Both the position numbers and the translations under genes were made by a program. Positions 21,499-59,739 of a stretch of 64,000 nt of DNA are shown here, piece by piece. Where the stretch lies: the NCBI RefSeq assembly GCF_024346975.1, contig NZ_AP024886.1:1030536-1094535 (forward strand), written 5' to 3'. The stretch comes from Vibrio neonatus. GTDB lineage: Bacteria > Pseudomonadota > Gammaproteobacteria > Enterobacterales > Vibrionaceae. Within the stretch, counting starts at the first letter, position 1. The number at the start of each line of letters is the position of its first letter. The notes under the pieces were generated by a model. It was not told the DNA's origin and made no database searches. It saw only the letters and a program-made list of their open reading frames with translations.

Positions 21499-22048
21499 AA
21501 AGGAACTCTCATCTTTTATTAGTAATTTCCGTCTGTACCCATCATCCTTTAACGCCCACAAGGCTTCATCCTCCTATAGCAAGGAGGAGAAGGAGGAGTA
21601 CTAGGGGCGTAGGGGGGGAGAGAAAAATGACTTATTGAGCAAAGTCTCACTATAGATGGCTAATCACGCGCTCAACGAGATATAAATCACACTACAAATG
21701 TAATACTGACAATTCATCAGCTATCAATATGAGATCTGACGCATTAAATTAATGATTTTAAATGAGACTTAGATCGTAATTATTTTTTAATAGTTGACGT
21801 TTTTTCTACAAAATTGTGCAAGCCTGAGAAATTGCCTTACTCAAAACAGGGACAGATTAGATCTCGGTCACAAATTTAAGGCGTAGAGTATAGAAATTGA
21901 GGAATAGTAGACAAATAAATAGCAGGATCAAAAGCATAAGGTTAATTTATTGGTATATAAGGTTATCACTCGCAGTAAAAATGTTATTTGTATTTAGCAC
22001 TGTGACGAAAGTTGACTATCCAATAGTAAAATAAATAGGTACGTAAAC
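21499..22048. promoter_or_regulatory. malP-malT divergent control region
   Basis: These 550 bases contain no credible gene. Near malP there are minus-strand GGATGA cores at 21542-21547 and 21566-21571 (the latter as AGGAGGATGA). Plus-strand GGAGGA cores lie at 21583-21588 and 21592-21597 in a purine-rich tract, and a G7 run at 21612-21618. MalT boxes in enterobacteria are GGGGA(T/G)GAGG, so this cluster is a reasonable activator region for malP. Towards malT a CRP-like half site (AATCACA near 21687) is seen, with a poor partner half. The malT ribosome binding site is weak. Confidence 0.5.
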
Positions 22049-24754
22049 ATGTGGATCCCTTCGAAGCTCACTCGCCCTGGTCGTTTACATAATGCAATTG
22101 TTCGCCCTCGTGTATTGGATTTACTGCAACAAGCCCCTTTTTATAAACTCGTCTTGCTTCGCTCCCCTGCTGGATACGGCAAAACCACCATGGCCGCACA
22201 ATGGTTGTCCGATAAAACCCATGTCGGTTGGTACAACCTTGATGAAAGCGATAACGACAGCAACCGCTTTATTAACTACTTCATCCTTGCCTTAAACAAA
22301 GCCACCGATAACGCCTGTAGCAATTCACAAGCCCTCATCGAAAAACGCCAATATTCATCGCTACATACCCTATTTGGCGAGATTTTTGCCGAATTGACCA
22401 ATAACGTACACGAATCGTATTTGGTCTTTGACGACTACCACTTAATCACCAACGAAGAGATCCATGAGGCTATGCGCTTTTTCATCAAGCACATGCCAGA
22501 TAACCTCACCGTTGTGGTCACCAGTCGCTCCAACCCGCCACTGGGCACCGCCAACCTGCGGGTGCGCGACTTAATGATTGAAATTAACGATGACTTGTTA
22601 GCCTTTGATTTAGAAGAGACGACTCGATTCTTTAATCTAAGAATGAAAGAAGAAATTGACGAATCTACCGCCAACGAAGTGCGCTCTTACGCCGAAGGTT
22701 GGCCGTCAGCCATGCAGTTAATTGCGGTGCAAGCACTGCAACAAAACAAACCCATTCAGCAATCATTGCGCAGTATTAACGACTTTAATCACACCCATTT
22801 ATGGGATTATCTTGCCGAAGAAGTGTTTGATTTTGTCGATAGTGCCACCAAAGAATTTTTAATGCAGTGCTCGGTGCTTAATCACTTTAACGATGAGTTA
22901 ATTATTGATGTCACCCAGCGTGATGATGCTCTAGCAATGCTAAATAGCCTGAATAAATTTGGCCTATTTTTAACTACCAGTTCCACCGAAAATAACTGGT
23001 ATCGCTTCCACAATTTGTTTAGCGAGTTTCTAACTAATCAACGCCTGACGCACATGCCGCAAAATGAAGTGCAGCTGCAAACTCTGGCCGCGCAATCATG
23101 GCTTAAATTAGGTCGCCCAACCGAAGCTTTAGTGCACGCTCAGCGAGCCAAAGATTCCACTTTGTGTTCTAACATCATGCAAGAGCACGGCTGGAGAATG
23201 TTCAACAATGGCGAGCTCACCACATTAGAAAAAGCCATCGCAGAGCTTGATACCGACCAGCTATATAAAACCGCCAAACTGCCCCTACTGCGCGCTTGGC
23301 TTGCACAAAGCCAGCACAGATTCGCCATTGTTGGGGATTTGCTCGCAGAAGCAAAAGACGAGCTAGCAAAACGAAACATCGAGCTATCAGTTAAAGATAA
23401 AGGACAAGTGAACGCCCTGCGCGCACAAGTCGCCATCAACAAAGGCAATCCAGAAGAAGCGCTGCAATTGGCCGAACTGGCGCTTAGCCAAATAGACAAT
23501 AACGACTTTAGAAGCCGCATCGTTGGCACTTCAGTAATTGGTGAGGTCAACCATGTATTAGGACGCTTAGACCGAGCGCTACCTATGATGCAACAAACCG
23601 AAAAGCTGGCACGTCAGTATCAAGTGTATCACCACGTATTATGGGCACTGATTCAGCAAAGCGAGATTTTAACCGCGCAAGGTTACATTCAAGCCTCATT
23701 CGAGCTTCAAGACCAAGCCTTTAAAGTGATTGAAGAGCATCACTTCCAACAAGTGCCATTACACGAACATTTGCTTAGAACCCGCGCCCATATTCTATGG
23801 TGCTGGAACCGCCTTGATGAAGCCGAATTAGCCGCCTACAAAGGTATCGAAGTGTTGGCGAATCAAGAAAGCCGACACCTACACAACTACGCTATCTTGA
23901 CCCGCATCGCACTAGGTCGCGGTGAGCTAGATAAAGCAGGACGCTTTGTAAAAAACATCGACGAGCTGCTTGCCGAGTCCAACTACCACGTAGATTGGTC
24001 AGCGAATGCGTCATTCTCGCAGCTGCTCTATTGGCAAGCCTGCAACGACATTGACGCCATTCACAACTGGCTAGCACAAACCGAACATCCAAAAGATGCC
24101 ACCAACCACTTTAACCAATTACAGCTGCGTAATATCGCCCGCGCTCAAATCGCCTGCGACCGCCTAGACGAAGCGAGCCAAACTATCGCCAAGCTACAGC
24201 AACAAACCCGCGAGCATCATTTAGTCACCGACACCAACCGCAATCTGATTGTAGAAGCCGTACTCAACATCAAACAAAACAACGAAGCGCAAGCCTGCGA
24301 AAACCTACAACAAGCCCTCAGCATGACCAACCAAACCGGCATGCTAGGCAACTTCATCGTAGACGGCGCATCCATCAATAAACTCTTAGAAAAACTGGTC
24401 AACAAAGGCCACCTAGCCGATTTAGAGCGCCACCGCGCCCTACAAATCCTAAAAGAGATCGGCAATAAACAGCGCAGCCGCGCCGTCCATTTCGACGAAG
24501 ACTTCGTCAACCAACTAGTCAACCACCCCAACATCCCAGAACTGATCCGCACCAGCCCCCTCACCCAACGCGAATGGCAAGTGCTAAACTTAATCTATTC
24601 AGGCTTCAGCAACGAACAAATCGCACAAGAACTGGACGTGGCAGGGACTACGATCAAGACGCATATTAGGAATTTGTATCAGAAGTTGAATATTGCCAAT
24701 AGGAAAGAAGCGATTGAGACAGCGGAGAATTTGTTGCGGTTGATGGGGTATTGA
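22049..24754 (+). CDS. malT: Maltose regulon transcriptional activator MalT
   Basis: MalT is an ATP-dependent STAND-family activator that oligomerises on maltotriose binding. The 901-residue protein has an N-terminal Walker A (SPAGYGKTT, 39-47) and a DDYH Walker-B-like site near residue 130. A winged-helix and superhelical TPR sensor region follow, and a C-terminal LuxR-type HTH (about 835-890, [18 protein letters not shown]) ends the protein. The length is the same as E. coli MalT. It is divergent from malP, its expected target. The 3' end of the gene is noticeably less GC-rich in its last 100 bases than the preceding stretch. Confidence 0.96.
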
Positions 24755-24935
24755 GTGGCTTCTAATCACACAGCCAAGTGAATATGAATCCATAGAATAG
24801 CCGCATAATATTCATGTAATCTTCGTCTTATAAGGGCTTGTCACATTCAAGCGATTGATAATTAACCGATGATCTGCAGACAACTGTAACGATAAACGTT
24901 AAGATAAACATTGGATTGTCATAAGATGCGCCTCA

Positions 24936-26837
24936 ATGTTCAAACTTAAAACTATTTGGGATTTACCACGAGTCACTAAACGCACCATTAGTGTCGTAGT
25001 TGACTCAATTTTCATTATCACTGCCTACTACGCCGCTCACTGGGCACGTTTGGGCGATTTGATGTGGCTTCCCAAATATGATAATCACAACGTACTGCTA
25101 GGCACGTTGGTCATTACTATTTTTGCATTTACTAAATTAGGATTGTACCGTGCTGTGCTAAGGTACCTAACCTTCCATGCTCTGTATGTCGTTAGTTTAG
25201 GAACGCTGATCTCTACCTTCTCTATAGGTTTACTTGCCTATTACTTCAATTCAGATGTACCACGTTCAGTCCCTGTTATTTATGGTGCATTCCTGGCGCT
25301 ATCATGTGGTGGTAGCCGATTAATTATTCGCGTACTAGTTAGTCAATCATTTGATAAAAACCGTAAAAATGTTCTTATTTACGGCGCAGGCTCTGCAGGC
25401 CGCCAACTAGCGCTTGCCCTTCGCACATCCGAAACTCATAAAGTAGTCGGCTTTATCGATCAAGATAAGACCCTAGACAACACTATTTTAATGGGGCTTA
25501 AAGTACTTAAAACCGCACAAATTGAAAAACATATTGATCGACACAACGTCAAACAAATCCTATTAGCGATACCTAGTGCTTCTCGATCTCGCCGCAAACA
25601 AATCATTGATGAGTTAGTTAACCTACCTGCCGAAGTCCTCACTATTCCTGATATGGGCGATATCGTTTCTGGTAAAGCGAAAATTGATGAATTTAAAGAC
25701 GTCGCAATTGAAGATTTACTCGGACGAGATCCAGTAGAACCGCAACAATCGTTAATGGAAGCTAACATTAAAGACAAGATTGTGATGGTTACCGGCGCTG
25801 GAGGTTCAATAGGCTCTGAACTGTGCCGTCAAATATTAAAGCAAAAACCCAAATCCATTGTTCTATTTGAACTCTCTGAATTTGGCCTTTATCAAATTGA
25901 TAGAGAGCTGCAACTACTTTGCGAAGAAAACGATTTAAATGTTGAGATAATCCCACTTTTAGGATCTGTGCAACGTATTAATCGCTTATCTGTGGTGATG
26001 AGAACCTTCAAAATCCAAACGGTCTATCACGCAGCAGCCTACAAGCACGTACCATTAGTGGAATACAATACGGTAGAAGGCGTAAGAAACAACGTTTTTG
26101 GTACATACAACACCGCAAAAGCCGCAATTAAAGCTAAAGTTGAATCATTTGTGTTGATCTCTACTGACAAAGCCGTGCGCCCAACTAATACCATGGGTGC
26201 GAGCAAACGAATGGCAGAACTCTCTTTACAAGCCTTAGCTGCAGAGCCCTCACATAACACCCGCTTCTGTATGGTGAGGTTTGGTAACGTACTTGGTTCG
26301 TCCGGCTCAGTAATCCCACTATTTAAAAAGCAAATTGCTGCAGGTGGTCCAGTAACAGTAACTCACCCAGATATCATCCGCTACTTTATGACCATTCCTG
26401 AAGCTGCACAGCTGGTAATTCAAGCCGGGTCAATGGGCAAAGGTGGTGACGTATTTGTTCTAGATATGGGTGAACCCGTACGTATTGCTGACTTAGCAGA
26501 GAATTTAATTAACCTATCAGGGTTAGAAGTTAAAAACGCAGAAAACCCACTGGGTGACATCGAAATTAATTACTCAGGCCTTAGACCTGGCGAAAAACTC
26601 TATGAAGAATTGCTCATTGGCGACAATGTAGGAAAAACCGCCCATGAAAGGATTATGACTGCAAACGAGGATTATTTAACCCTAACTGAATACGATTCGT
26701 TAGCGCAAATACTTGATAAGGCATGTCATGATTTTGACCACCAATCGATACGTCAAATTTTATTAGATGCACCTACGCAGTTTAATCCGACCGATGGTAT
26801 TGAAGATCTTGTTTGGAAATCCAAACAAATCAATTAG
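24936..26837 (+). CDS. Membrane UDP-N-acetylhexosamine 4,6-dehydratase (WbpM/CapD family)
   Basis: This family converts UDP-GlcNAc to the 4-keto-6-deoxy sugar used for QuiNAc, FucNAc or bacillosamine. The 633-residue protein has four N-terminal membrane segments (about 20-135) and a degenerate first Rossmann motif (YGAGSAGRQ, 149-157). A second catalytic SDR domain starts at TGAGGSIGSE (286-295). The catalytic tyrosine position is Met420 with Lys424 (TMGASK), the replacement expected in WbpM-type enzymes. It is the first gene of a plus-strand trio with a reductase and a sugar-phosphate transferase, convergent with the main minus-strand locus. Confidence 0.9.
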   Translation: MFKLKTIWDLPRVTKRTISVVVDSIFIITAYYAAHWARLGDLMWLPKYDNHNVLLGTLVITIFAFTKLGLYRAVLRYLTFHALYVVSLGTLISTFSIGLLAYYFNSDVPRSVPVIYGAFLALSCGGSRLIIRVLVSQSFDKNRKNVLIYGAGSAGRQLALALRTSETHKVVGFIDQDKTLDNTILMGLKVLKTAQIEKHIDRHNVKQILLAIPSASRSRRKQIIDELVNLPAEVLTIPDMGDIVSGKAKIDEFKDVAIEDLLGRDPVEPQQSLMEANIKDKIVMVTGAGGSIGSELCRQILKQKPKSIVLFELSEFGLYQIDRELQLLCEENDLNVEIIPLLGSVQRINRLSVVMRTFKIQTVYHAAAYKHVPLVEYNTVEGVRNNVFGTYNTAKAAIKAKVESFVLISTDKAVRPTNTMGASKRMAELSLQALAAEPSHNTRFCMVRFGNVLGSSGSVIPLFKKQIAAGGPVTVTHPDIIRYFMTIPEAAQLVIQAGSMGKGGDVFVLDMGEPVRIADLAENLINLSGLEVKNAENPLGDIEINYSGLRPGEKLYEELLIGDNVGKTAHERIMTANEDYLTLTEYDSLAQILDKACHDFDHQSIRQILLDAPTQFNPTDGIEDLVWKSKQIN

Positions 26838-26882
26838 CACTATATTGAAGTTAAAACCCGTTACACCAATAAAGGTATTCAA

Positions 26883-27791
26883 GTGTATAAATATTTAGTC
26901 ACTGGCGCTAACGGTTTTGTTGGTTCGGCGCTAATGGAGCGTCTATCTGATCAAGCAGTAGCGGCAGTTAGAACAACCAGCAATTCAACATTTATTAATA
27001 CTAAACACATAGATGATATAAACTCAAACACTGACTGGAGCGACTGCCTAGAAGGTATTGACGTCGTAGTTCATTTAGCGGGCATTGCTAGCAAAAGTGG
27101 TTATTCGAGCAATGAATACAACGAGATCAATAATCTAGGAACAGTTAAATTAGCAAAAGATGCTGCAGAGAACGGTGTAAAAAGATTTGTCTTTGTAAGT
27201 ACTATCGCTGTCATGGGCCTAACAGGCACATTTACTGAAGAATCTGAGGTAAAACCTCAAAATGACTACGCCAAGTCAAAATTAGCTGCGGAACAGGGGC
27301 TTCACCAATTAGCATCTGAAACTAACATGGAAATAGTCATTCTTAGACCCACCTTAGTTTATGGTGCCGGGGCAAAAGGTAATTTCGTTGTATTGCAAAA
27401 ACTAACGGAGCGCCTACCTGTCTTGCCTTTCGCAATGACTAATAATAAACGTAGCTTTATCTCACGTGAGAATCTCGTTGATTTAATCATAACCTGCGCG
27501 ACAAAAAATGAAGCTGCAGGACAAACATTTTTAGCCTCTGAAGGGCCAGCGCTCTCAACGAAAGAATTTACCAATGCAATCGCAAAAGGATTAAATTCTC
27601 GAGTGACTCAACTACCCTTCCCAGGATCTATTGCTAAAATCTTATTTAAACTGATTAATCGCCCAACAATGTACAGTCAGCTATTTGAAGATCTAGAAGT
27701 AAAATCAACCAAATTAAAAGACGTCCTTAACTGGACGGCACCAAAATCAATTGCGCAAAACATGGCAGAATTAAAAGAGACAAAACAATGA
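26883..27791 (+). CDS. NAD-dependent epimerase/4-reductase (WbpV/WreQ-like)
   Basis: The 302-residue extended SDR protein has the N-terminal GANGFVGS glycine motif and the catalytic YAKSK (near residues 133-137). The start is GTG with AAAGG six bases upstream. It lies between a 4,6-dehydratase and a phosphoglycosyltransferase. In analogous trios this enzyme reduces the 4-keto intermediate to UDP-D-QuiNAc or UDP-D-FucNAc. A plain UDP-sugar 4-epimerase is the alternative. Its stop overlaps the next gene's ATG by 4 bp. Confidence 0.75.
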   Translation: MYKYLVTGANGFVGSALMERLSDQAVAAVRTTSNSTFINTKHIDDINSNTDWSDCLEGIDVVVHLAGIASKSGYSSNEYNEINNLGTVKLAKDAAENGVKRFVFVSTIAVMGLTGTFTEESEVKPQNDYAKSKLAAEQGLHQLASETNMEIVILRPTLVYGAGAKGNFVVLQKLTERLPVLPFAMTNNKRSFISRENLVDLIITCATKNEAAGQTFLASEGPALSTKEFTNAIAKGLNSRVTQLPFPGSIAKILFKLINRPTMYSQLFEDLEVKSTKLKDVLNWTAPKSIAQNMAELKETKQ

Positions 27792-28336
27792 TAAGAATAT
27801 TCGACTTCCTATTTTCATTCTTTGGCCTGATATGCTTATCGCCAGTGCTAGTCATAGTGACTATCTCGGGTTACTTTGACACAGGTTCCCCTATTTTTAT
27901 GCAAACTAGAATGGGCAAAAACAAAAAGCCATTTACCCTAATAAAATTTCGCACCATGAATGTAGAGACGAAATCAGTCGCTAGCCATCTTGCAAGCAGC
28001 AGTTCCATTACAAAGTTTGGGCAGTTTTTAAGAAAAACTAAACTCGATGAACTACCGCAATTGATCAACGTATTGAAAGGTGAAATGAGCCTGGTTGGTC
28101 CAAGACCGAACCTTATGACACAAGACGACCTTATCCAAGAAAGAGAGTCTCGAGGTGTTTACTTAATACTGCCTGGCGTTACAGGGCTTGCTCAGGTTAA
28201 TAATATTGATATGTCTACGCCTCAACACTTAGCTGAGACGGACAAGAAAATGATTGAGGAAATGTCTGTAAATAATTACTTTAAGTTTATTATTATGACG
28301 GCTACGGGCAAAGGGACTGGTGATGCGATAAAATAA
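27788..28336 (+). CDS. Monotopic sugar-1-phosphate transferase (PglC/WreU-like)
   Basis: These small phosphoglycosyltransferases attach the first sugar phosphate to undecaprenyl phosphate. The 182-residue protein has one N-terminal re-entrant hydrophobic segment and the conserved core KFRTMN, the LRKTKLDELPQL helix (Asp-Glu pair), and SLVGPRPN followed by PGVTGLAQVNN. It lacks the large N-terminal membrane domain of WcaJ-type enzymes. The context with dehydratase and reductase suggests D-QuiNAc-1-P or D-FucNAc-1-P as donor. It is the second initiating enzyme in the window beside WecA. Confidence 0.85.
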   Translation: MIRIFDFLFSFFGLICLSPVLVIVTISGYFDTGSPIFMQTRMGKNKKPFTLIKFRTMNVETKSVASHLASSSSITKFGQFLRKTKLDELPQLINVLKGEMSLVGPRPNLMTQDDLIQERESRGVYLILPGVTGLAQVNNIDMSTPQHLAETDKKMIEEMSVNNYFKFIIMTATGKGTGDAIK

Positions 28337-38196: not shown

Positions 38197-39363
38197 TTAA
38201 TCTGAACCAAATAGATCACGTGTGTACACTTTGCTTTCAACGTCTGCCAACTCTTCTACCATGCGATTTGATACGATCACATCAGACATGGCTTTAAACT
38301 CAGCCAAGTCTTTAATAACAGCAGAGTGGAAGAACTCTTTTTCTTCTAGAACAGGCTCGTATACCACTACCTCAATACCTTTGGCTTTTAGGCGCTTCAT
38401 AATACCTTGGATAGAAGAGGCACGGAAGTTGTCAGAGCCTGCTTTCATAATCAGGCGGTAGATACCGACTCGCTTTGGATTACGTTTCAATATCGAGTCA
38501 GCCACAAAATCTTTACGCGTGGTATTGGCATCAACAATCGCACCTATTATATTATTCGGTACTTCTGCGTAATTGGCACGAAGCTGTTTGGTATCTTTAG
38601 GTAGGCAATACCCTCCATAACCAAACGAAGGATTGTTGTAGTGACTGCCGATGCGAGGATCTAACCCTACGCCCTCAATGATCTGGCGAGCGTCTAGGCC
38701 ATGAGTTTCGGCGTAAGAATCCAGTTCGTTAAAGTAAGCGACGCGCAGTGCAAGGTAGGTATTCGAAAACAATTTAACTGCTTCGGCTTCGGTAGAGTCC
38801 GTAAACAGCACTTCGATGTTCTCTTTTACTGCACCTTCTACCAGCAAATTAGCAAATGTTTCAGCACGCTCAGAACGCTCACCCACGATAATGCGTGAAG
38901 GATGAAGGTTGTCGTACAGTGCACGCCCTTCTCTTAAGAATTCGGGTGAGAAGATCAGATTATCACAGCCTAACTCTTGCTTAATGCGAGCGGTATAACC
39001 CACAGGAACGGTGGATTTGATCACCATCACTGCATTTGGGTTAATCTTCATCACCAGTTTAATCACCGCCTCTACTGACGATGTATTAAAGTAGTTGGTT
39101 TCTACGTCGTAATCAGTTGGCGTTGCAATCACTACATAGTCGGCATCTTGGTATGCCTGTTTGGCATCGAGTGTAGCAGTGAAATTAAGGGGCTTATTAG
39201 CCAGAAAGTCTTCAATTTCAACATCGACTATCGGCGATTGTTTGTTGTTCAGTAGCTTGACTTTATCTTCAACAATATCAACCGCGATAACTTGATGGTG
39301 CTGCGCTAGCAACATCGCATTAGACAGGCCTACATAGCCTGTACCTGCAATAGCAATTTTCAT
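38197..39363 (-). CDS. ugd: UDP-glucose 6-dehydrogenase Ugd
   Basis: Ugd oxidises UDP-glucose to UDP-glucuronate with two NAD+. The 388-residue protein has the dinucleotide motif [10 protein letters not shown] (7-16), the catalytic cysteine in [12 protein letters not shown] (near residue 255) and the FSPEFLREG loop. The length matches the short bacterial form. It is the first gene of the ugd/epimerase pair. GalU, which supplies UDP-glucose, lies 2 kb upstream in the same direction, so the precursor pathway is contiguous. Confidence 0.95.
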
Positions 39364-39767
39364 TTTATTCTCGTTTTATTCTTTAATGTGCAAAGGACTC
39401 ACCTCACATTGATAGCAAGCCAATCCTTGTGTACAACACGATTTGTACTCATTCCACCAAGTAAAGTTGCTGTTAGGGATGCACAACCGCGTTATTCTCT
39501 TTCTTCAAATACTAGTTACTCCAGCTTATTCCACTTTCACGACACTTTTCCCATCTAAAAAGAGTGTGTCATCCAATACATGTGGAATAAGAAACACCCT
39601 ACAATGATGTAGAACATGCAGTATTCTGACACGTTTAACGCCTCACCAATGGAGACTAACCGCAGAGTACGTGACTTGAACCGAACAAATCACCACGAGT
39701 GATTCCCTTAGCATGATGTAATAGCGTTGCTCGCGGTCTAGGTAACCACTACCTACCAATCACAACC
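39364..39767. other. Spacer containing a wecA 3' remnant
   Basis: Between the ugd start and the repeat at the end of wecA there is no intact gene. About 39525-39650 is a decayed 3' end of a second wecA. The rest, including 39660-39767, shows no recognisable feature, although weak similarity to wecA may extend to about 39690. Confidence 0.7.
39525..39650 (-). pseudogene. wecA 3' remnant with in-frame stops
   Basis: The minus strand translates to segments such as NVSEYCMFYIIVGCFLFH and YWMTHSF. They align directly with the C-terminal end of the intact WecA (NVPEYVMFYTIVGCFLFH, YWMTHSF). The next codon is TAG where intact WecA has Gln, and a second stop follows before KWNK. A small deletion is also visible at its 5' side. 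It is the 3' end of a second, diverged wecA whose 5' end remains at 43.2-43.3 kb. Confidence 0.88.
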
Positions 39768-39791
39768 TGCAAATTTCAAGACCTGACCCCG
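39768..39791 (-). repeat. RAYT-associated repeat copy 1, at the 3' end of wecA
   Basis: This is one of three copies of a 24-25 bp sequence (plus-strand core CAAATTTCAAGACCTG). Here it provides the last codons and the TGA stop of wecA, so WecA ends SGVRS. The other copies are at 42107-42131 and 43154-43178. Confidence 0.9.
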
Positions 39792-40855
39792 CTTTTCCAC
39801 TTTCGAACTATCTTCGCCATCTGAAATGAGTGAGTCATCCAGTAGGTATGGAATAGGAAACAACCGACAATGGTGTAGAACATTACGTATTCTGGTACGT
39901 TGAAGTATTCACCTAGTAGGCCAATGGTTGAGTAAATGATTTGGGTTACGCAAATTACTACTAGTGCTTCGCGTGGGGTGAAGCCGATACGTTGCATAAT
40001 ATGGTGGAAGTGTTCTCGGTCAGGGTGAAAGGGTGAGTGTCCTTTGCGGACGCGGCGGATCATAATGGCCATCATATCAATCAAAGGCACAGCAATTAAC
40101 CAAAGTGCGGTTACCGGTCTAATGACGTAGTGTCCACCCTCGCCTTGTGTTCCGCCGATCAGAACCCAAATTACGGTAAAGCCGATCATCATGCTTCCTG
40201 CATCGCCCATAAATACCTTACGCACTTTACCGAAGTAACCTAGGTTAAATAAAATGAACGGAATTAAGATAACGATAAAGACGACAGTAAAATACGCGGC
40301 ATTAGGAAGATCGTGGCTATAAAAGACAATGCCGAGTGACGCAAACACTACCGTGGTTAATCCACCTAATAGACCATCAATACCATCAACCATATTAAAG
40401 GCATTGATTGCGCCGATTACGGCAAACATAGTAACAACGATGTCAACATAAGGAGGGAACTGCCAAACACCAAAGCCCAGTGCGTTACCGATATGCGACA
40501 GTGTGATACCTGTATAATGAATCATCACCAAAGTTAATAGTGCCTGAATTCCCATGCGTAATTTATAACTAATATCAAAGCGATCATCTAACACCCCGAT
40601 CGCCACCAAGATGGTTAAACAAGTGGCAAAAATTCCTGGGTGCTGCAGTTCGTCAGCATTGATATATAAGAAATACAGCACTGTAATACTAATCGACACT
40701 CCACCAACCAAAGGTACAACACCTTGATGAAGTTTACGTGCATTCGGTTTATCCACTAAGCCTATTGCATACCCTACTTTACGCATGCAATAAAGCACCG
40801 CAAGTGATAAGAAGAAAAACATCGATAGTTCGATGATATACTCAAAAACTGACAT
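39776..40855 (-). CDS. wecA: UDP-GlcNAc:undecaprenyl-phosphate GlcNAc-1-phosphate transferase WecA
   Basis: WecA starts repeat-unit synthesis by moving a HexNAc-1-phosphate to undecaprenyl phosphate. The 359-residue polytopic protein has family motifs LVDKPNARKLHQG, DDRFD, NMVDGIDGLLGG, VFMGDAGS and the HFHHIMQR His loop. I chose ATG 40855 because homology to E. coli WecA begins there; an in-frame start at 40939 adds 28 unconserved residues. The C-terminus is rewritten by a repeat element (ending SGVRS). A second, diverged wecA survives only as fragments on both sides, so this copy has probably replaced the resident allele. Confidence 0.93.
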   Translation of the reverse strand: MSVFEYIIELSMFFFLSLAVLYCMRKVGYAIGLVDKPNARKLHQGVVPLVGGVSISITVLYFLYINADELQHPGIFATCLTILVAIGVLDDRFDISYKLRMGIQALLTLVMIHYTGITLSHIGNALGFGVWQFPPYVDIVVTMFAVIGAINAFNMVDGIDGLLGGLTTVVFASLGIVFYSHDLPNAAYFTVVFIVILIPFILFNLGYFGKVRKVFMGDAGSMMIGFTVIWVLIGGTQGEGGHYVIRPVTALWLIAVPLIDMMAIMIRRVRKGHSPFHPDREHFHHIMQRIGFTPREALVVICVTQIIYSTIGLLGEYFNVPEYVMFYTIVGCFLFHTYWMTHSFQMAKIVRKWKSGVRS

Positions 40856-41165
40856 GACAGAAAACCTATCGTGAATGATTAAGAAAATGTAAAAAGAAAA
40901 TGTAAAAAGAAAATGTTTTGAAAATAAATGGTATAGCAATTTAAGCTTATGCTGTACCGAAGCACAGTACAGATTATTCCGTAGTTAGAGACAAAAAGTG
41001 GGGTAAACAGTAATTAAAATCAATATTGAATCAGCTACGATAGAGTATCAATCGTTAAAGAGTGGGTTATAGAATTCAAGGGAAAATCACCAATGAAACT
41101 AAGTAATCATTAAGGGCGTATGCAACAAGAATAAAGTGCTAAGCTCTTGCAACGAAAATCTTACT

Positions 41166-42032
41166 TTAAACTTTCTTGGTAGAAGAACGGTCAATTTTTA
41201 CTTTACTGCCTTTTAAGTAAACATTCTGGTAGCAATAGTTAGTCGCTTCGATATACCCTTCTACACTTCCACAATCAAAACGCTTACCTTTGAATTTATA
41301 CGCAATCACGCAACCACTTTTCGCTTGCTCTAACAATGCATCGGTGATTTGGATCTCCCCGCCTTTACCGGGCTTAGTATCTTGCAAAATATCAAAGATA
41401 TCAGGAGTTAAAATATAACGACCAATAATAGCTAGATTACTCGGCGCTGTACCTTGCTCTGGTTTTTCTACCATGTCGGTAATACGAATTAAGTCATCAC
41501 TTAAATGCTCACCCGCAATCACGCCATATTTATGCGTTTCCGATTCAGGCACTTCTTCAACCGCGACAATAGAACAGCGGAACTGACGATATAACGCAGC
41601 CATTTGCGCTAAAACACCTTCCTGCTCACTGATACACAAGTCATCTGCCAAAACCACCGCAAAAGGATTGTCGCCCACCAATTCTTTGCCGGTTAAGATT
41701 GCATGCCCTAACCCTTTCATCTCGCGTTGGCGGATAAATGTATACTGCGCAGAATCAATCAAAGAACGAATATCATCTAATAGAGGTTCTTTGTTGGTAC
41801 CTTGAATTTGATGCTCTAACTCATAGTTCTTATCAAAGTGATCCATAAGTGAGCTTTTACCACGGCCTGTAACAACAGCCATGCTAGACATACCCGCTTG
41901 AATAGCTTCATCAACACCGTATTCAATAAGGGGTTTATTGACTATAGGCATCATTTCTTTTGGCATTGATTTTGTGGCAGGTAAAAAACGCGTGCCATAG
42001 CCAGCAGCAGGGAATAGACAGTGTTTACTCAT
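41166..42032 (-). CDS. galU: UTP-glucose-1-phosphate uridylyltransferase GalU
   Basis: GalU makes UDP-glucose, the substrate of Ugd further along. The N-terminal nucleotide loop FPAAGYGTRFLPATKS is present, with KEMMPIVNKPLIEYGV and the metal-site LADDLC. ATG at 42032 (288 residues) matches the family. A start at 42074 would add 14 residues with no homology and lie close to the repeat. It is placed between the transposase gene and the intact wecA inside the repeat-bracketed segment. Confidence 0.94.
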   Translation of the reverse strand: MSKHCLFPAAGYGTRFLPATKSMPKEMMPIVNKPLIEYGVDEAIQAGMSSMAVVTGRGKSSLMDHFDKNYELEHQIQGTNKEPLLDDIRSLIDSAQYTFIRQREMKGLGHAILTGKELVGDNPFAVVLADDLCISEQEGVLAQMAALYRQFRCSIVAVEEVPESETHKYGVIAGEHLSDDLIRITDMVEKPEQGTAPSNLAIIGRYILTPDIFDILQDTKPGKGGEIQITDALLEQAKSGCVIAYKFKGKRFDCGSVEGYIEATNYCYQNVYLKGSKVKIDRSSTKKV

Positions 42033-42106
42033 TTTATTATCTTTAATTAATTGGAAATAAGGAGTATGTATCAATTGCCGGGGATTAACCCTAAGCTAAA
42101 ATTTGC

Positions 42107-42131
42107 GTGCAAATTTCAAGACCTGCCTCCG
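42107..42131 (-). repeat. RAYT-associated repeat copy 2, at the 3' end of the transposase gene
   Basis: This 25-bp copy differs at two positions from the other two. It supplies the last residues (GGRS) and the TGA stop of the transposase gene. On its left, ATTTGC/GCAAAT forms a short palindrome with the repeat end (about 42101-42116). Confidence 0.88.
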
Positions 42132-42952
42132 TGTTGATTTCGTACAATGCGACTTACTATTGAGCAATGCACATTAAAATAATTTGCTATTTGTTTGAGC
42201 GTGTAACCACCAGAACGATACGCAAGAGACATCGCTTCGGAACGATTAGACGCCAATGCTTCATAAGTGGGCAAGGGTTTTGGTTTAGATCGTCGTTGTT
42301 TTAATGGCACTTCTTGAAGGTCGCATTGTAATTTGTCATGCAGTGCTTGGTGCGTTTGCACAAAATGGTCACTGCCGAGAAAAACTTGATGTTGCAAGTG
42401 TTGCCAAATATTAACACCCCTACCATTAGCAACGAACTGTATATACTCTTTTATGGCGACCTTTCTATTTCTAGAAAAATGGCATAACAAAGCATCCGTT
42501 GCCAACCAATCCGGTGACTCTAAATTGCCAAGCATATGATGCCAACTAGACCACTGCCATTCATCTAAATTCTCAACCATTTTTGCCCGTAAAGGATTGA
42601 GAACAATATAACGACAGAGTTCGAGTAAATAGTTTTCTTTATCAACCAAGATTGCTTTGTAGCGCCCTTGAAACAAGTGTCCCACCCGTTTGTGCTTGCG
42701 ATTGATGGATTGAGTAAATACACCATTTAAGTGACGCATACCCTGACTTAAATTACCGTCTGGCGTTTCAAGCAAGAGATGATAATGGTTACTCATCAAA
42801 CAGTAAGCATGTACTACCCAGTTGTAATGCTCACAAACTTGCCCTAGAACATCCAAAAATAACTCAAAGTCCTCGTCGCTAGCATAAATACACTTTCGTT
42901 CATTACCTCGTGAGGTTATATGATACAACGCCCCTGAAAACTCTAATCGCAA
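42116..42952 (-). CDS. REP-associated tyrosine transposase (Y1 HUH nuclease), start codon region mutated
   Basis: The 278-residue protein carries the HUH motif in MSNHYHLLLE (His56, His58) and the catalytic-tyrosine segment ENYLLELCRYIVLNP (Tyr108 as likely nucleophile). A C-terminal HTH-like stretch (YTLKQIANYFNVHCSIVSRI) follows. Related proteins start M-x-R-P-L-R-x-E-F. Here ATG 42964 is followed by AGT and TGA, then CCA TTG CGA, so codon 3 has probably changed from CGA to TGA. Translation might restart at TTG 42952. The last residues and stop are encoded by the repeat. Activity is therefore uncertain. Confidence 0.82.
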   Translation of the reverse strand: MRLEFSGALYHITSRGNERKCIYASDEDFELFLDVLGQVCEHYNWVVHAYCLMSNHYHLLLETPDGNLSQGMRHLNGVFTQSINRKHKRVGHLFQGRYKAILVDKENYLLELCRYIVLNPLRAKMVENLDEWQWSSWHHMLGNLESPDWLATDALLCHFSRNRKVAIKEYIQFVANGRGVNIWQHLQHQVFLGSDHFVQTHQALHDKLQCDLQEVPLKQRRSKPKPLPTYEALASNRSEAMSLAYRSGGYTLKQIANYFNVHCSIVSRIVRNQHGGRS

Positions 42953-43153
42953 TGGTCAACTCATGATTCCATTCCAAGTGAAACAGCAAAACATGAAGTT
43001 AACTATTACTCAAAACAAAACGATATTAATCACAACATCACTCAATTACGACCAGCCTCGCACTAAATCAACCGAAAAACGACATAAAACCGATTACAAA
43101 AACCACACTAAATAAAAAAGACCAAACCTCGCTATTACCCACACTTATTACAC

Positions 43154-43178
43154 GTGCAAATTTCAAGACCTGACCCCG
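43154..43178 (-). repeat. RAYT-associated repeat copy 3, beside the wecA 5' remnant
   Basis: This 25-bp copy is identical to copy 1 over the shared 24 bases. It starts directly after the stop codon of the truncated wecA reading frame. Confidence 0.9.
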
Positions 43179-43325
43179 TTATTCCTTGCTACCCTGATGG
43201 AGCTTGCGCGCATTGGGTTTATCAACCAAACCTATTGCGTAGCCAACTTTACGCATGCAATACAGCACGGCAAGCGACAAAAAGAAGAACATGGACAGTT
43301 CTATTAGATAGTCAAAAAAAGACAT
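43179..43325 (-). pseudogene. wecA 5' remnant (48 codons)
   Basis: The minus-strand frame from ATG 43325 encodes 48 residues. They match the first 45 residues of intact WecA almost perfectly (for example CMRKVGYAIGLVDKPNARKL), then read GSKE and stop. Nucleotide identity with the intact copy is only about four in five by hand count over 115 bases, so this is a diverged allele rather than a recent duplicate. It is truncated exactly where the repeat begins. Confidence 0.92.
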
Positions 43326-43700
43326 GAATAAAGCCTAATACGAGTTGAATATGTACGTGTCTAGCCAACACGCTTAAATAGAATAAGGTTTATAGTTTTC
43401 TGCCAGCGTAATGATTTAAAGAACATTTGGCATTTAGAGTTTGAACGTTTATCGCTGAAGCCCCTAACTGAACAACTCTGCAGATTACCGTTGTTCTGTG
43501 TCACAGATATGACTATAGGGTTTAGAATAGCAATTAAAAAATGTGTCTCAGTTTGGTCTCACCCTGAGACACATATTGTTGTAAGCAAATGAATTATCGA
43601 ATTAAAAAAGGAACGCCAACGATCATCCCAATAGGGCACACGATTCAATGGCTTATACGAAAAGACAAGCTTTCTCTCTGTGAGTTTGCCGCGGCCTTGA
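43326..43700. other. Region between the glycosyltransferase gene and the wecA remnant
   Basis: No gene is seen in these 375 bases. They contain the strong terminator (43536-43574) and, on its distal side, what was presumably the promoter/leader of the broken wecA. Confidence 0.55.
43536..43574 (-). terminator. Rho-independent terminator after the L-sugar operon
   Basis: A perfect 11-bp stem (43564-43574 with 43541-43551) is followed on the minus strand by six Ts. It lies about 125 bp after the GT4 stop. Confidence 0.88.
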
Positions 43701-44933
43701 TTAGCGACTCTTTTGTTTGTGACTTAAGGCACTAACAATAGAGTTTGCGATATTTCCAACTGCAAATTCTTTTCCTAATAGCTCGTAGCCAGAAGCACCA
43801 ATACGTTTCCTTAACTCGGCATCACTTTGCAACTTGCTTGCATTTTCAAAGAAAGTATCATCGTCACCGTTAACGCTAATCAACCCAGCATGATTTTCAT
43901 TCACCAAATCCATTAGATCATTTCCTTTATTGACACTGCCTAAGATGGGGAGTGACTGAACCATATATCCTAATAACTTACCAGGAAAATTATGTGCACT
44001 ATGCTGAGATGACAGTGAGAATAATCCAACATCGACTTGAGCTAAAATATCTTTGAATTGATCTTGGGAAACAGAAGGCAGATAAGAGCAATTGTTCAAC
44101 TCCCAATCTTTAATCAAGTCATTCACTAACTTGACTTCATCACCCTGTCCTACAAAAAGGAAGTGCGCCTTGTCGAAGCATTGCATGGCTCTCGCTAAAC
44201 GCATTAGATTGGCCATATCCTGAGCATGACCAATATTCCCCCCGTAGAAGTAGATTACTTCATCGTCTATCCCTAATCGCTTTCTCAAGTGATCTTCTTT
44301 TCCAGAGAGCTTATGAGGTAACAGATTAGCCCAGTTGCGCAGTATCGCAGTTGGGTATTGCAACCCCGTATTGGAATTGAATATCTCTAGGTTTTTCTCG
44401 GACATAACACCAATAGTATCTGCTTGACGATAAGACACTGATTCAAAGAACCTAAAGTAACGTTCTATTAAAGAGCCTTCTTTCATCAAACCCGAATCAA
44501 TAGCCCATTGAGGAAAGAAATCACGCAAGACAAGGTAACTATTGCACTGGCAACGTTTTTTCAGTTTTGATACCAACGATCCAAAGAAAATTGATGGAGA
44601 ATAGTAAACAACCCCATCAAATGTATCTTTATCGATTTTTCCTTGAATTGCACTCCAAGATCTAAAAGACAGCAACGTTTCATTAATCGCTCGCTTAATC
44701 TTTGGAACATCCTTGATTTCGCCAGAAAAGAAACGCCAAACTACAATACCATCTAAATGATCTTCTATAAGTGCTGATTCATGTTTTTCGAAGTGAGGCG
44801 TGATAACTGTTACTTCATGTCCTTGACTTATTAACTCTAAACCAAGTTCATGAAACATTTTGGCTGCCACACGTGTGCTGTGTGGCAGGTAGTCATCAAT
44901 AATTAACGCTAGGTGCATTACTGTTTCTTCCAA
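43701..44933 (-). CDS. Glycosyltransferase family 4 (WbuB-like)
   Basis: The 410-residue GT-B protein starts near LALIIDDYLPHSTRVAAKM and has a donor-domain entry YFYGGNIGHAQDM. It resembles WbuB-type transferases, which add an L-6-deoxy-HexNAc from the UDP sugar made by the three upstream genes. It overlaps the C2-epimerase gene by 16 bp, so it belongs to the same operon. The likely donor is UDP-L-QuiNAc or UDP-L-FucNAc, depending on the pathway outcome. A strong terminator follows it. Confidence 0.8.
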   Translation of the reverse strand: MEETVMHLALIIDDYLPHSTRVAAKMFHELGLELISQGHEVTVITPHFEKHESALIEDHLDGIVVWRFFSGEIKDVPKIKRAINETLLSFRSWSAIQGKIDKDTFDGVVYYSPSIFFGSLVSKLKKRCQCNSYLVLRDFFPQWAIDSGLMKEGSLIERYFRFFESVSYRQADTIGVMSEKNLEIFNSNTGLQYPTAILRNWANLLPHKLSGKEDHLRKRLGIDDEVIYFYGGNIGHAQDMANLMRLARAMQCFDKAHFLFVGQGDEVKLVNDLIKDWELNNCSYLPSVSQDQFKDILAQVDVGLFSLSSQHSAHNFPGKLLGYMVQSLPILGSVNKGNDLMDLVNENHAGLISVNGDDDTFFENASKLQSDAELRKRIGASGYELLGKEFAVGNIANSIVSALSHKQKSR

Positions 44934-55340: not shown

Positions 55341-55742
55341 ATTTACTAAACCTAGTTATAAAAAAATTCCATTTTACTTATAAATAAATGGTATAAAGTT
55401 ATTTTTAAAACTCAACCTAACGAGCAGTACTGAGACACTTTTATTTCATTTTGAGACAACCTGATTCAGCCAAACCCTTATAAACCCAAGGTTTCACTTA
55501 ATTTTTCAAAAAGGCCCCAATAGGTCCATGTAAATATCTATCTTGGTACGCATAAGTTTTCATTAGGCCAATAACTATCTAGCCAATTCAGTTACACGTC
55601 ACCTTCTTAAGGGATCGTTGCCATTAAGATCCCGGATAATTGCTACGCAATTTCCGGGATGACAGTTTCTATAGAGTCGAGCTTAAATACTTATACTGAC
55701 TAGAATACACTCTTACTATTACAAAGACTTCAATGGGTGATA
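55341..55742. other. wzc-wzx intergenic region with a palindromic repeat
   Basis: No gene was found in these 402 bases. The notable element is the inverted repeat at 55629-55660. Nothing else was recognised, although a secondary promoter for the AT-rich block is possible. Confidence 0.55.
55629..55660. repeat. Palindromic intergenic repeat
   Basis: Arms ATCCCGGA...TTGC and GCAATTTCCGGGAT pair over 14-15 bases with one bulge and a 2-3 nt loop. It lies after wzc and has the look of a dispersed intergenic repeat. As an RNA hairpin it would also act as a strong pause or terminator, which RfaH could override. Confidence 0.7.
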
Positions 55743-57950
55743 CTACGAATCACTTTTGTATGCGTAATTGTAGTAACCATATGTGTAGTAACTTGAAGCT
55801 GTTTTCTCTACGGCATTCAAAATAACGCCTTTAGTTTCTACACCAGCTTGTTCTAGGCGATCTGCAGCTACTTCAAGCTCTTTAGGCGACGTTATGCCGA
55901 ATCTAGATACCATCAGTGTTGTTCCACTATGGCGGCCAACGATTGCGGCATCGGTTACAGCTAGCACAGGTGGTGTATCGATAAGAACGATATCGTAGTT
56001 TTCACTTGCCCAATCCACCAATTCAGTAAATCTAGCGTGCATTAGGAGCTCTGAAGGATTTGGCGGTGTTTTACCTTTAGAAATAACATCTAGATTATCT
56101 GTGATACTAGTATGAATCACATCTTCGATACTGTGCGTATTTGCTAGACAGTCTGAAAGGCCGTGGGTATGAGCCAAAATAACGCCATGCCCTATATGGC
56201 CTTTGCGCATATCGGCGTCGATAACAAGCACCTTTTGACCACTACTAGCGATAACCGAGGCAAAGTTGGTAGAAACAAACGACTTACCGATACCTGGCGA
56301 CGGGCCCGTAATCATAATGACGTTGTTTTTCGCTTCCATCATCGCAAAGTGCAAGCTTGTTCGAAGCGAACGTAGTGCTTCAACCGCTAGGTCTGCAGGG
56401 TTAACTAGAGTCAACATCGCCTCTTGTGCAGGGCGTTTCTTACCCGACTTTCTAAGCTTCTGGTAAGATTTTTCAATCTTCTCTTGTTGTTCTGATTTTG
56501 GAATAGTCGCATATACAGACAAACCGATTTCTTCAATTTGGTCCGGGCTTTCCACTCCACGATGGAATGCAGCGCGAAGCAATACAAACGCTACGCTTAA
56601 CATACCGCCAAGAAGAGTGGCTAATACTGCAATGAGTGGTTTTTTCGGTTTAACCGCTAAGCCGTTTGAAGCGGCTTTATCAAGAATGCGTACGTTACCT
56701 ACAGTACTTGCCTTAACTATGGCAAGTTCTTGTGATTTGTTGAGCAATTGAACATAAATTTCTTGGTTTACTTGCACATCGCGAGTTAAACGCAGTACTT
56801 CACGTTGAGTTTTTGGAAGCTTTTTGATTTTTGCTTCTAGCTGATGTTTTTGTTTAAGTAACGTTTGACGTTTTTCTAGTACTGCAACATAAGCTGGGTG
56901 TTGTTTAGTGAAGCGCTGTGCTAGTTCACTTTCTTTGAATGTCAGTTCATTCAGTTGTGATTCGAGTTCAACCATCACTTTCAAGGTTGATTGCGCTTCT
57001 AAACCTAAATCTATAGATTCATTATCTTGGCGGTATTTATTCAGCGCATCTTCATTAATGGTTAGTTGCTGTTTAATTTCTGGTAGCTTGGTTTTTAAGA
57101 ACTTGAGGCTGTTTTCAGCTTCGGCTGCGTTTCTGTCTACGTTTTGTAGGAAGTAGTTAGTTGCAACATCATTTAGTAGGTCAATATTTTGTTGAGAGTC
57201 TGGTCCTTCGAAGCCAAAGGATAAAATACCGGACTGTTTACCACGTTCAGATACTGATAAGTTAGACGCTAACCAATTGATAGCGGTGAGTTTAGAGCGT
57301 TGTGATAAGTTGAAAACCTGTCCTTGTTTACCCGAAAGGTATGAAACAAAGATAGAGAATGCGGCTTGATCAGATGTTGCCGATACTTGAGACGATTTAG
57401 CTAACTCCCCTACTTTTCCTTTTAAAATCAGTTTTTCGTTAGCATCAACTAGTGAGTACTCACCCGTTTGTACGTTATCAAGGGTAAGTTCATAACCCTC
57501 TGTATCGGCATATTCAGGGATGTTAAATCGTTCTACTTTTATGTGGGCTTCTTTGCCTAAGCGCATGGCTAAGCCTTTACCGATAACTGGTAAGTAGTCA
57601 GGCGTTGCGACCGTAGTTAAGTTGAATTTATCTACTGTTTTGCTTAAAACCATGCGAGATTTAATAATCTCAATTTCAGTGGCAGCGTTAGACTCTTGAG
57701 CAAACATGTCGCTCAAGCCTTCGCTCAATGCTGGCATACCACTGTTTTTTTGTTCTACTTGAATTAGTGCATCTGCTTTATAAATTGGCGTTGCCAATAA
57801 TGCATAGGTCACACCTAATGCAGCAAAGATGAAAGTAGTAACAATGATGATCCACTTACCATCAAGCAACAGACCAAGCAATTTACCAAGATCGATTACG
57901 TCAGGTTGAGGGGTTTGTTGTGAACGATTTGCACGAGTGTTTTGGGTCAT
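55743..57950 (-). CDS. wzc: Wzc: polysaccharide co-polymerase and tyrosine autokinase
   Basis: Wzc controls chain length and export of Wzy-dependent polymers through cycles of tyrosine phosphorylation. The 735-residue protein has two membrane segments (about 33-53 and 438-459) flanking a periplasmic Wzz domain with coiled-coil stretches. The C-terminal BY-kinase has Walker A GPSPGIGKS (549-557), Walker A' VLVIDAD (574-580) and Walker B IVLIDTP (654-660). The tail is a tyrosine cluster (SSYYTYGYYNYAY). It follows wzb by 59 bp. It is the only co-polymerase in the window. Confidence 0.95.
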   Translation of the reverse strand: MTQNTRANRSQQTPQPDVIDLGKLLGLLLDGKWIIIVTTFIFAALGVTYALLATPIYKADALIQVEQKNSGMPALSEGLSDMFAQESNAATEIEIIKSRMVLSKTVDKFNLTTVATPDYLPVIGKGLAMRLGKEAHIKVERFNIPEYADTEGYELTLDNVQTGEYSLVDANEKLILKGKVGELAKSSQVSATSDQAAFSIFVSYLSGKQGQVFNLSQRSKLTAINWLASNLSVSERGKQSGILSFGFEGPDSQQNIDLLNDVATNYFLQNVDRNAAEAENSLKFLKTKLPEIKQQLTINEDALNKYRQDNESIDLGLEAQSTLKVMVELESQLNELTFKESELAQRFTKQHPAYVAVLEKRQTLLKQKHQLEAKIKKLPKTQREVLRLTRDVQVNQEIYVQLLNKSQELAIVKASTVGNVRILDKAASNGLAVKPKKPLIAVLATLLGGMLSVAFVLLRAAFHRGVESPDQIEEIGLSVYATIPKSEQQEKIEKSYQKLRKSGKKRPAQEAMLTLVNPADLAVEALRSLRTSLHFAMMEAKNNVIMITGPSPGIGKSFVSTNFASVIASSGQKVLVIDADMRKGHIGHGVILAHTHGLSDCLANTHSIEDVIHTSITDNLDVISKGKTPPNPSELLMHARFTELVDWASENYDIVLIDTPPVLAVTDAAIVGRHSGTTLMVSRFGITSPKELEVAADRLEQAGVETKGVILNAVEKTASSYYTYGYYNYAYKSDS

Positions 57951-58009
57951 GAGAAATAGGTTCTAGCTCAGGTAAGTAGATTAAATAAATTTGGAGTTGA
58001 GTGGAGCGC

Positions 58010-58435
58010 TTACAGGCGCTTTATCCACTCTTTTGCTGACTTATCAATTAAGCCATACACGTGTTCAAATGCTTCTAAGCTTTGCTTGTAAGGATCAGGG
58101 ATTTCTTTGTTTATCCAATGTCCATACAGCATGGTTTTTCCGCGAGCGGCTGGGGCTAACTTGGTAATCGCGTCAATGTGACCTTTTTCCATAACTAGAA
58201 TAAGGTCGTTCTCTGCAATCATTTTAGTCGTTATTTGTCGCGCAACATGGTTAGTTAAGTCTAAATCTTTGTTTGCTGATACTGTGATGGAGTTTTCATC
58301 AGTCGGTTTATCAACTAATGCGCCCAACCCCGCCGAAGTGACATTTTTTGCTGGCAATGCCTGCTTTAAAATCTCTTCCCCAATAGGGCTACGGCAAATA
58401 TTGCCAATGCACACTACCAATATGTTGTTGAACAT
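58010..58435 (-). CDS. wzb: Wzb: low-molecular-weight protein-tyrosine phosphatase
   Basis: Wzb dephosphorylates the Wzc tyrosine cluster. The 141-residue protein has the catalytic loop CIGNICRSP (Cys9 nucleophile, Arg15) and the general acid in EIPDPYKQS (near residue 115). Length and fold are typical. It lies 26 bp after the wza stop and 59 bp before wzc, in the standard wza-wzb-wzc order. Confidence 0.95.
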   Translation of the reverse strand: MFNNILVVCIGNICRSPIGEEILKQALPAKNVTSAGLGALVDKPTDENSITVSANKDLDLTNHVARQITTKMIAENDLILVMEKGHIDAITKLAPAARGKTMLYGHWINKEIPDPYKQSLEAFEHVYGLIDKSAKEWIKRL

Positions 58436-58461
58436 GAATGTAATCCTGTTGCGCTGCGTTA

Positions 58462-59739
58462 TTACCAGTTATGAATTCTTACTGCCATTTCAGTTAGGTC
58501 ATTTAAACCGCTGATGGTAGGCAAGATTTGGCTAACCACACGGTTGTATTGCACGATTGGCGCTGCGGTTACATACACTACATCATATGGCTCAAGTTCA
58601 AATTCTGTACCTGTAACCAATGCTGTTGCGTCACTAATATCCAGTTGATATACGTTTGCGACGATGTGTTCTGGTCTTGGTTGTTTACCTTGCTCAGCAA
58701 GTTGTTGATTTTTTGCTTCAAGGTCGCGCTTTTCTTCATCAGTTAACGATTGATCACGAACTTGCGCAAGATAGGCTTCGTGCGCTTTATCACGTTGGCC
58801 GCTACGTACTACAAATACGCCTGTTGCGTTTGCTGCTAACTCATTAATGCCACCCACTTCACTTAGTGCTTCAGTCAGTGTCATACCAGAACGATCAATT
58901 TTAAGCAATTTAGGTGACTTTACTTCACCAAGTATAAACACCTTCTGCGCATCGTTACGAGGCACATGGATGATATCACCTTTTTGTAGCAAACGATTTT
59001 GTGTTAGGTCGCCATTTTGCATTAGATCATGTAAGGATAAAGTTTCTGACTTACCTTGGCGAGTGAGAGTAACATTGCGCCAATCCGCGTCGGCGGTTAG
59101 ACCACCCGCTTGGTTGATAGCATCTAAAAAAGTAAGAGGGACATTGGTAAGAGGTTGATACCCTGGCTGGCGAATCTCACCCGTCACATAGGCTTTTTGT
59201 GAACGGAAACCAGCAATATTGACGTCAACTTGGGGACTTTCAATGTAACGAGCTAGGCGATCAGAGATCTCTTTACGTACTTGTTTAACTGTTTTACCAG
59301 CTACTTTAACAAATCCAATATATGGATAAAAAATAGTTCCATCGGCATGAACCCAGTGACCAGCTTCTTGAGCACTACGATAAGAACCGGCAGGGATAGT
59401 TAGTTCAGGGTGATCCCATATAGTTATGTTTAGTATATCGCCTTCACCAATAACATACTCATAGTTAGCCGCTTCTGCATCTAACACAGGGTTGCTAAGA
59501 GAATGTGCTTCCACAGCCGCAAACGACGCGTAACGGTTAACAAAAGAGGGAGATAAAGGGTATACGTTAACGACGTTGACTGGAGTTTGTGCCAGCTCTT
59601 GCTCAGACATTTTTGATTCGTCTGGCGTAGTGTTAATTACTTGCTTATTGTCTAAATCGACAGTTGAGCCCGGCATAGTACAGCCTGAGATGGCTAGCAA
59701 TGTTGCCAAAGGCAAGACTGTTTTAAAGATTGGTTTCAT
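58462..59739 (-). CDS. wza: Wza: outer-membrane polysaccharide export lipoprotein
   Basis: Wza forms the octameric outer-membrane channel of Wzy-dependent capsules. I chose ATG 59739 (425 residues) because it opens a lipoprotein signal (KPIFKTVLPLATLLAISGC, Cys20 as lipidation site). A longer frame reaching 59844 would run through the ops element side of the leader and give no signal peptide. The PES domain YVIGEGDILNITIWDHPEL and two SLBB-like domains (YVTGEIRQPG, FILGEVKSP) follow. It is longer than the E. coli protein because of an extra segment (about residues 300-370). It is the first gene of the locus. Confidence 0.93.
   Translation of the reverse strand: MKPIFKTVLPLATLLAISGCTMPGSTVDLDNKQVINTTPDESKMSEQELAQTPVNVVNVYPLSPSFVNRYASFAAVEAHSLSNPVLDAEAANYEYVIGEGDILNITIWDHPELTIPAGSYRSAQEAGHWVHADGTIFYPYIGFVKVAGKTVKQVRKEISDRLARYIESPQVDVNIAGFRSQKAYVTGEIRQPGYQPLTNVPLTFLDAINQAGGLTADADWRNVTLTRQGKSETLSLHDLMQNGDLTQNRLLQKGDIIHVPRNDAQKVFILGEVKSPKLLKIDRSGMTLTEALSEVGGINELAANATGVFVVRSGQRDKAHEAYLAQVRDQSLTDEEKRDLEAKNQQLAEQGKQPRPEHIVANVYQLDISDATALVTGTEFELEPYDVVYVTAAPIVQYNRVVSQILPTISGLNDLTEMAVRIHNW

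Follow-up and report, generated by a model that had tools for sequence, protein, structure and literature searches.

How does an intact galU-wecA pair come to lie between the two ends of another, broken wecA gene, with short repeats beside both breaks? The question is raised by a surface-polysaccharide locus of Vibrio neonatus, analysed here in a stretch of 64,000 nucleotides of contig NZ_AP024886.1 (the window). On the minus strand, the initial annotation had read a wecA 5' stub, a repeat (R1), a RAYT-type transposase gene with a second repeat (R2), galU, an intact wecA ending in a third repeat (R3) and a wecA 3' remnant, and every part is present in that order. Specifically, the 5' remnant, the first ~140 nt of a second wecA (43188..43326), adjoins a glycosyltransferase gene (43701..44933; NF007640 match below cut-off) that we take to be wbuB-like and that is preceded on this strand by presumably fnl-like genes. 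It is followed by R1 (~43155..43177), the transposase frame (42116..42952), the degenerate R2 (42108..42130), which overlaps the end of that frame, and galU (41166..42032; TIGR01099, 396 bits; 99.7% amino-acid identity to Vibrio ezurae). The intact wecA (39776..40855; TIGR02380, 429 bits; 95% amino-acid identity to V. ezurae) takes its final residues and stop codon from R3 itself (39768..39790). Beyond R3 lie the 3' remnant (39492..39743), which corresponds to ~250 nt at the end of a second wecA and contains indels, ugd (38197..39363; TIGR03026 above cut-off) and an epimerase-like gene. At up to 5 mismatches, the 23-mer repeat has 3 copies in the window versus 0 in 20 shuffled windows.

The remnants correspond to opposite ends of wecA and flank the intact segment. 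Over 137 nt, the 5' remnant shares 81% identity with the intact wecA, and its alignments to five alleles stop at ~43188-43192. In the 3' remnant, a clean part (39529-39647) is 75% identical to the intact wecA ungapped and 78% by BLAST, and the alleles of V. ezurae and G091 can be aligned to it, with gaps, as far as 39743, 24 nt from R3; alignments to six other wecA alleles begin 13-38 nt later. Neither remnant is flush with its repeat, the gaps being ~10-14 nt at R1 and at least 24 nt at R3. The 3' remnant begins at ~nt 830 of wecA at the earliest, and the broken gene is without ~690 nt, roughly nt 140-830. A WecA protein search of the whole genome returned one intact wecA and only the two window remnants, and this middle part was not found anywhere in it. 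A carried-along V. ezurae flank was also considered as the origin of the junction 24 nt past R3, but an equally high score is reached by 483 of 2000 shuffles, which leaves the idea unsupported. When 227 Vibrio genomes were searched at the DNA level, with two candidates scored per genome, no other genome matched the whole arrangement among the matches listed, and the best of these was V. ezurae, over galU-wecA.

The comparison with V. ezurae bears directly on which wecA is inherited. The window and V. ezurae contig C49 (bases 1-139000 compared) correspond in chromosomal location, with close flanks at 90% (window 22031-28336) and 87% identity (55429-59873) and farther flanks at 76-93%. Between these conserved flanks lies a polysaccharide cluster of 27 kb that otherwise differs, its only DNA matches at E <=1e-15 being the galU-wecA block and the two remnants, which hit the same V. 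ezurae wecA. Conserved flanks around a replaced interior, the pattern expected of polysaccharide locus exchange, are thus what the two genomes display. The galU-wecA block up to R3 (39774..42044) agrees with its V. ezurae counterpart (C49 68049-70304) in site, order and strand, its 86% identity over 2280 bp falls within the 76-93% of the flanking backbone, and the V. ezurae wecA too runs into a repeat variant at the same codon (KWKSGVR). Because both the site and the fusion are common to the two species, galU-wecA-repeat is most simply regarded as inherited and the rest of the cluster as exchanged.

This outcome probably reverses the polarity proposed by the initial annotation, in which the remnants were the two ends of one resident gene and the intact copy was an imported allele carried or accompanied by the RAYT-repeat module. 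The flanking of the segment by opposite wecA ends stands, whereas resident status of the remnants is disfavoured when galU-wecA itself is syntenic in V. ezurae, and the same synteny, with its backbone-like identity and common wecA-repeat fusion, disfavours import of the intact pair. Carriage by the RAYT element is likewise unsupported: V. ezurae homology ends ~60 nt short of the repeat beside galU, and the remnants are not flush with the repeats. Instead, relatives with an intact wecA display both neighbourhoods of the remnants: wbuB is followed by intact wecA in G075 and G223, and intact wecA by ugd in V. superstes, G108 and G217. By their neighbours, the remnants look like parts of an incoming cluster. 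Since wbuB-wecA-ugd in one piece was seen in none of the 19 mapped loci, we only infer that both remnants belong to one wecA allele. Further wecA 3' pieces occur in sugar loci of G091 (L134 15669-15759) and G072 (L123 14666-14735).

The window repeats are 23-bp TIRs with the sequence GGGGTCAGGTCTTGAAATTTGCA. The 105 aligned copies, chosen at <=4 mismatches, have sharp edges, with conservation of 90-100% at each inside position and at most 60% outside, and their consensus contains GGGGTCAG, an instance of the GGGGWSAS motif. It has neither a GTAG nor a GTGG tag, and the window repeats do not fit GTAG-type REPs. At <=2 mismatches, the genome holds 106 copies versus 0 for a reversed control pattern, a genomic family as expected of a TIRYT/TIRtron, and 40 other genomes contain no copy at <=1 mismatch. 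The 14-base core is found in 26 of 227 Vibrio genomes, with 103 copies in this genome, 100 in G096, 7 in V. ezurae and at most 13 elsewhere. A function as DNA-uptake signal, considered because AAGTGCGG often lies 5' of the repeat, was rejected (3 copies in 64 kb). Convergent core pairs ~122-123 bp apart on G048 contigs C10 and C53 suggest a miniature element of constant length that belongs to this family. Two V. ezurae draft contigs, C13 and C33 (L151, L154), end near TIR sites of the present genome, and the repeats may break assembly there.

The transposase frame encodes 278 aa from a TTG and scores above the cut-offs of PF01797 (E 4e-14) and NF047646 (89 bits, cut-off 80). HYH and YIVLNP are visible in its translation, in agreement with the class 2 signature of a TIRYT Y1 core (HuH and a catalytic Tyr, Y---NP), and its C-terminus has only sub-threshold MarR/HTH_38/HTH_23-type matches. 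As far as the available text of PMC3733652 and PMC6006769 describes them, the protein type and the GGGGWSAS motif fit TIRYTs. An in-frame stop just after the ATG where its relative starts interrupts the window gene, so the L080 copy, an open frame, would be the likelier source of any recent transposase activity. R1 and R2 are direct copies around the window transposase, and inverted outer copies surround the relatives in L080 and G096. Among seven genomes searched, full-length close relatives occur in this genome (the window copy and one 66% alike) and G096 (one, 65%), pieces in V. superstes and G177, and only 28-29% matches in V. ezurae; G072 and G107 have none. In the few genomes compared, many repeats accompany the presence of the transposase. 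Broken relatives are also found in other polysaccharide clusters, at L002 4865-5652 (V. superstes) and L004 1610-1888 (Vibrio sp. UCD-FRSSP16_30), and in V. superstes a broken relative lies directly upstream of wecA.

Across the genome, TIRs favour the ends of genes. In 23 fetched loci, 38 of 102 TIRs have their GGGG end at most 15 nt away from a stop codon whose frame runs towards the repeat, while, strand considered, only 3.1% of the intergenic positions in these loci would qualify (mechanical frames of at least 80 aa). In 8 of these 38 the frame ends inside the repeat, and the other 30 sit just outside the gene. Gene junctions were in addition compared with V. ezurae in six of the 23 loci, picked for many TIRs and labelled by hand, with 70 junctions kept: 16 of 24 junctions with a TIR are broken, versus 9 of 46 without (p=1.7e-4). 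The excess shrinks as a minimum gap is imposed, from 16/24 versus 8/31 at >=20 bp (p=0.003) through 14/22 versus 7/26 at >=50 bp (p=0.019) and 14/21 versus 7/23 at >=70 bp (p=0.033) to 12/18 versus 7/20 at >=100 bp (p=0.10). Dropped from this count were L080 252aa-396aa, 396aa-293aa and 293aa-manA together with L091 343aa-259aa (without a counterpart in V. ezurae or at the end of a contig there), everything left of 4638 in L094, L090 302aa-84aa (inside an insertion) and 87aa-296aa, and two presumably spurious frames of 94 aa in L080. Among the 16 broken TIR junctions, at least 4 have the extra DNA on the V. ezurae side, so the breakage may have either polarity. As such, the association between TIRs and breakpoints is suggestive, not settled. 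Five aligned TIR-bearing junctions have neighbours conserved in V. ezurae, and clear replacement is seen in two only, L085 12516 and L093 15648, where a TIR stands in place of intergenic DNA and, at L085 12516, of the gene's last codons too. At L091 12251/12326 the repeats look added, and the V. ezurae site has, by eye, a TIR-like relic; L091 10707 and L090 3856-4144 are too poorly aligned to tell replacement from addition.

The repeats also recur at other disturbed loci, both at a deletion and at the edges of inserted genes. Near position 4045 of L094, a gene that we take to be GH92-like is cut to a signal-peptide stub, one TIR and a 3' remnant, where the open frames of G177 and G091 run to 868 and 870 codons. 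Three genes bounded by TIRs are missing at the matching place in V. ezurae: one without Pfam or NCBIfam match (L090 5587-7145), a chondroitinase-B-like gene (L091 5260-8974; 45-bp gap in V. ezurae) and a DUF4041/T5orf172 gene (L094 6607-8293), missing also in G177 (gaps of 207 bp in V. ezurae and 117 bp in G177), with relatives of the last located elsewhere in both genomes. By eye, the insert edges coincide almost exactly with TIRs on both sides in L090, where homology breaks off at the left-hand GGGG and starts again directly behind the right-hand repeat, on the right in L091 and on both sides in L094; in the window, neither the remnants nor the galU-wecA block are flush with the repeats. In turn, at least 10 TIR-bounded segments are ordinary, with their genes in place in V. 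ezurae (L085 4, L080 2, L091 2, L090 1, L094 1), which counts against a simple cargo model. The V. ezurae site of the L090 gene contains sequences that resemble decayed TIR halves by eye; with the relic at L091 12326, this means that TIRs may have preceded the genes.

L097 2743-3984 and 3987-5228 form a 1.24 kb tandem duplication at 94% identity, with TIR copies at the ends. Within L085 13081-18931, a mosaic block with TIRs at most gene junctions, identity to V. ezurae drops at TIRs, from ~94% to 75-77%, and is back at 95% at 18931. Finally, L094 5616-5779 is an unrelated ~160-bp intergenic repeat without Rfam match, present in many copies at ~75-78% here and in several other Vibrio genomes.

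The available data are compatible with a model, to which we give an even chance of being right, in which the locus is the scar of a surface-polysaccharide gene exchange with junctions near TIRs, the resident galU-wecA-TIR having been kept. The lineage's own galU-wecA, already fused to a TIR at its 3' end as in V. ezurae, would have stayed in place while the DNA on either side gave way to incoming genes, wbuB-wecA and wecA-ugd among them, as synteny and the relatives' gene neighbourhoods suggest. The incoming wecA would have been broken close to TIRs, leaving its first ~140 nt near R1 and its last ~250 nt beyond R3; this order of events and a single incoming allele are presumed. The proximity of TIRs to both junctions would most likely reflect, judging from several loci, TIR units that replace DNA beside gene ends, often at breakpoints, possibly through an HuH transposase that cuts at TIRs and joins them to new DNA. 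Synteny and the wecA-TIR fusion in V. ezurae, the wbuB-wecA and wecA-ugd pairs of relatives, the missing wecA middle, the excess of TIRs at stop codons, that of broken junctions at TIRs and the GH92 case all speak for such a scar, against which stand remnants and a resident block that are not flush with TIRs, the weak length-matched junction excess and the early stop in the window transposase. A role of the transposase in the exchange is unproven.

A rather unlikely but serious alternative is an ordinary exchange in which homologous or illegitimate recombination anchored on wecA left wecA debris, TIRs merely gather at permissive gene ends and the transposase is uninvolved. R3, being present in V. 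ezurae, predates the exchange, wecA 3' pieces also lie in the G091 and G072 sugar loci, a wecA-ended insertion is described for V. parahaemolyticus K3/K28 capsule loci in the available text of PMC7829505, and both the conserved TIR-bounded segments and the length-matched controls suit bystander repeats; such repeats account less readily for a TIR near both window junctions and at the GH92 deletion, or for the near-exact edges of three inserted genes. That a RAYT-repeat module instead brought an imported galU-wecA into resident remnants is improbable: the segment is indeed enclosed by a single broken wecA, with a repeat close to either end, and resident and insert would differ by ~19%, but galU-wecA-TIR stands at the same V. 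ezurae place with backbone-like identity, and the RAYT frame is damaged. Equally improbable is a composite unit moved whole from TIR to TIR by a TIRYT, here R1-RAYT-galU-wecA-R3. The TIR-bounded inserted genes in L090, L091 and L094 are the kind of cargo it calls for, yet the synteny of galU-wecA leaves no need for movement, most compared TIR-bounded segments are conserved in place, and the decayed TIR-like sequences in V. ezurae allow that TIRs came before the genes.

Beyond the exchange scar, a broader reading, which we consider unlikely and more so than that of bystander repeats, makes TIRYT and TIRs into breakpoint makers. TIR ends would be linked to host DNA at the 3' ends of genes and adjoining sequence lost, gene middles deleted (wecA, GH92) and whole genes captured between two TIRs (chondroitinase-B-like, DUF4041/T5orf172, unknown-family), so that they would reshape gene content, including surface-sugar loci, and not only spread repeats. 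Most descriptions of RAYT-like transposases present them as agents that spread tiny repeats. If TIR-type RAYTs do cut and rejoin host DNA, with genes lost or gained at repeat edges, they would constitute an overlooked cause of bacterial gene turnover. A testable contrast is offered by this genome and G096, which have the transposase together with ~100 TIR cores each, versus the V. ezurae draft genome, with no close relative and 7 cores.

Among known systems, the insertion IE1, bounded by wecA in V. parahaemolyticus K3/K28 capsule loci, is similar in that a Vibrio sugar cluster has wecA on both sides of inserted genes, and extra wecA pieces in such clusters are therefore not new; in the available text of PMC7829505, however, wecA lies at the insert ends and no transposase repeats are mentioned, whereas here an inherited galU-wecA sits between pieces of another wecA. 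The meningococcal capsule island, where galE1 is intact and galE2 truncated, likewise pairs an intact gene and a truncated copy beside an exchanged capsule locus, but concerns another gene and comes with no mention of TIRYT repeats in the available text of PMC5349592. Less expected are the dense TIR family, its placement at stop codons and its presence at the edges of deleted and inserted genes, a combination for which a limited look at the literature returned no report. Among the titles and abstract openings listed, there was likewise no clear precedent for REPs or RAYTs that act at breakpoints or bound genes, and a literature text search found the term TIRYT in two papers and no occurrence of GGGGTCAGGTCTTG. 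REPs lie mostly downstream of genes according to the available text of PMC3733652. In RAYT/REP and REPIN systems, as outlined in the available parts of PMC6006769 and PMC8266576, short repeats, often inverted pairs, accompany one or two transposase genes, as here; the 23-bp repeat differs from their GTAG-tagged hairpins in having no GTAG or GTGG tag. The closest likeness is to TIRtrons/TIRYTs, described in the available text of PMC3733652 and, as subclass 2.1, PMC6006769 (neither of which has the word Vibrio in its main text) as a RAYT-like HuH-Y transposase with flanking GGGGWSAS repeats and a genomic repeat family often present as dimers. The present system has such a transposase, such repeats and such a family, and departs from the description in its direct rather than inverted R1 and R2, its ~105 nearly identical copies, their strong sense-stop placement and their presence at gene deletions and around inserted genes.
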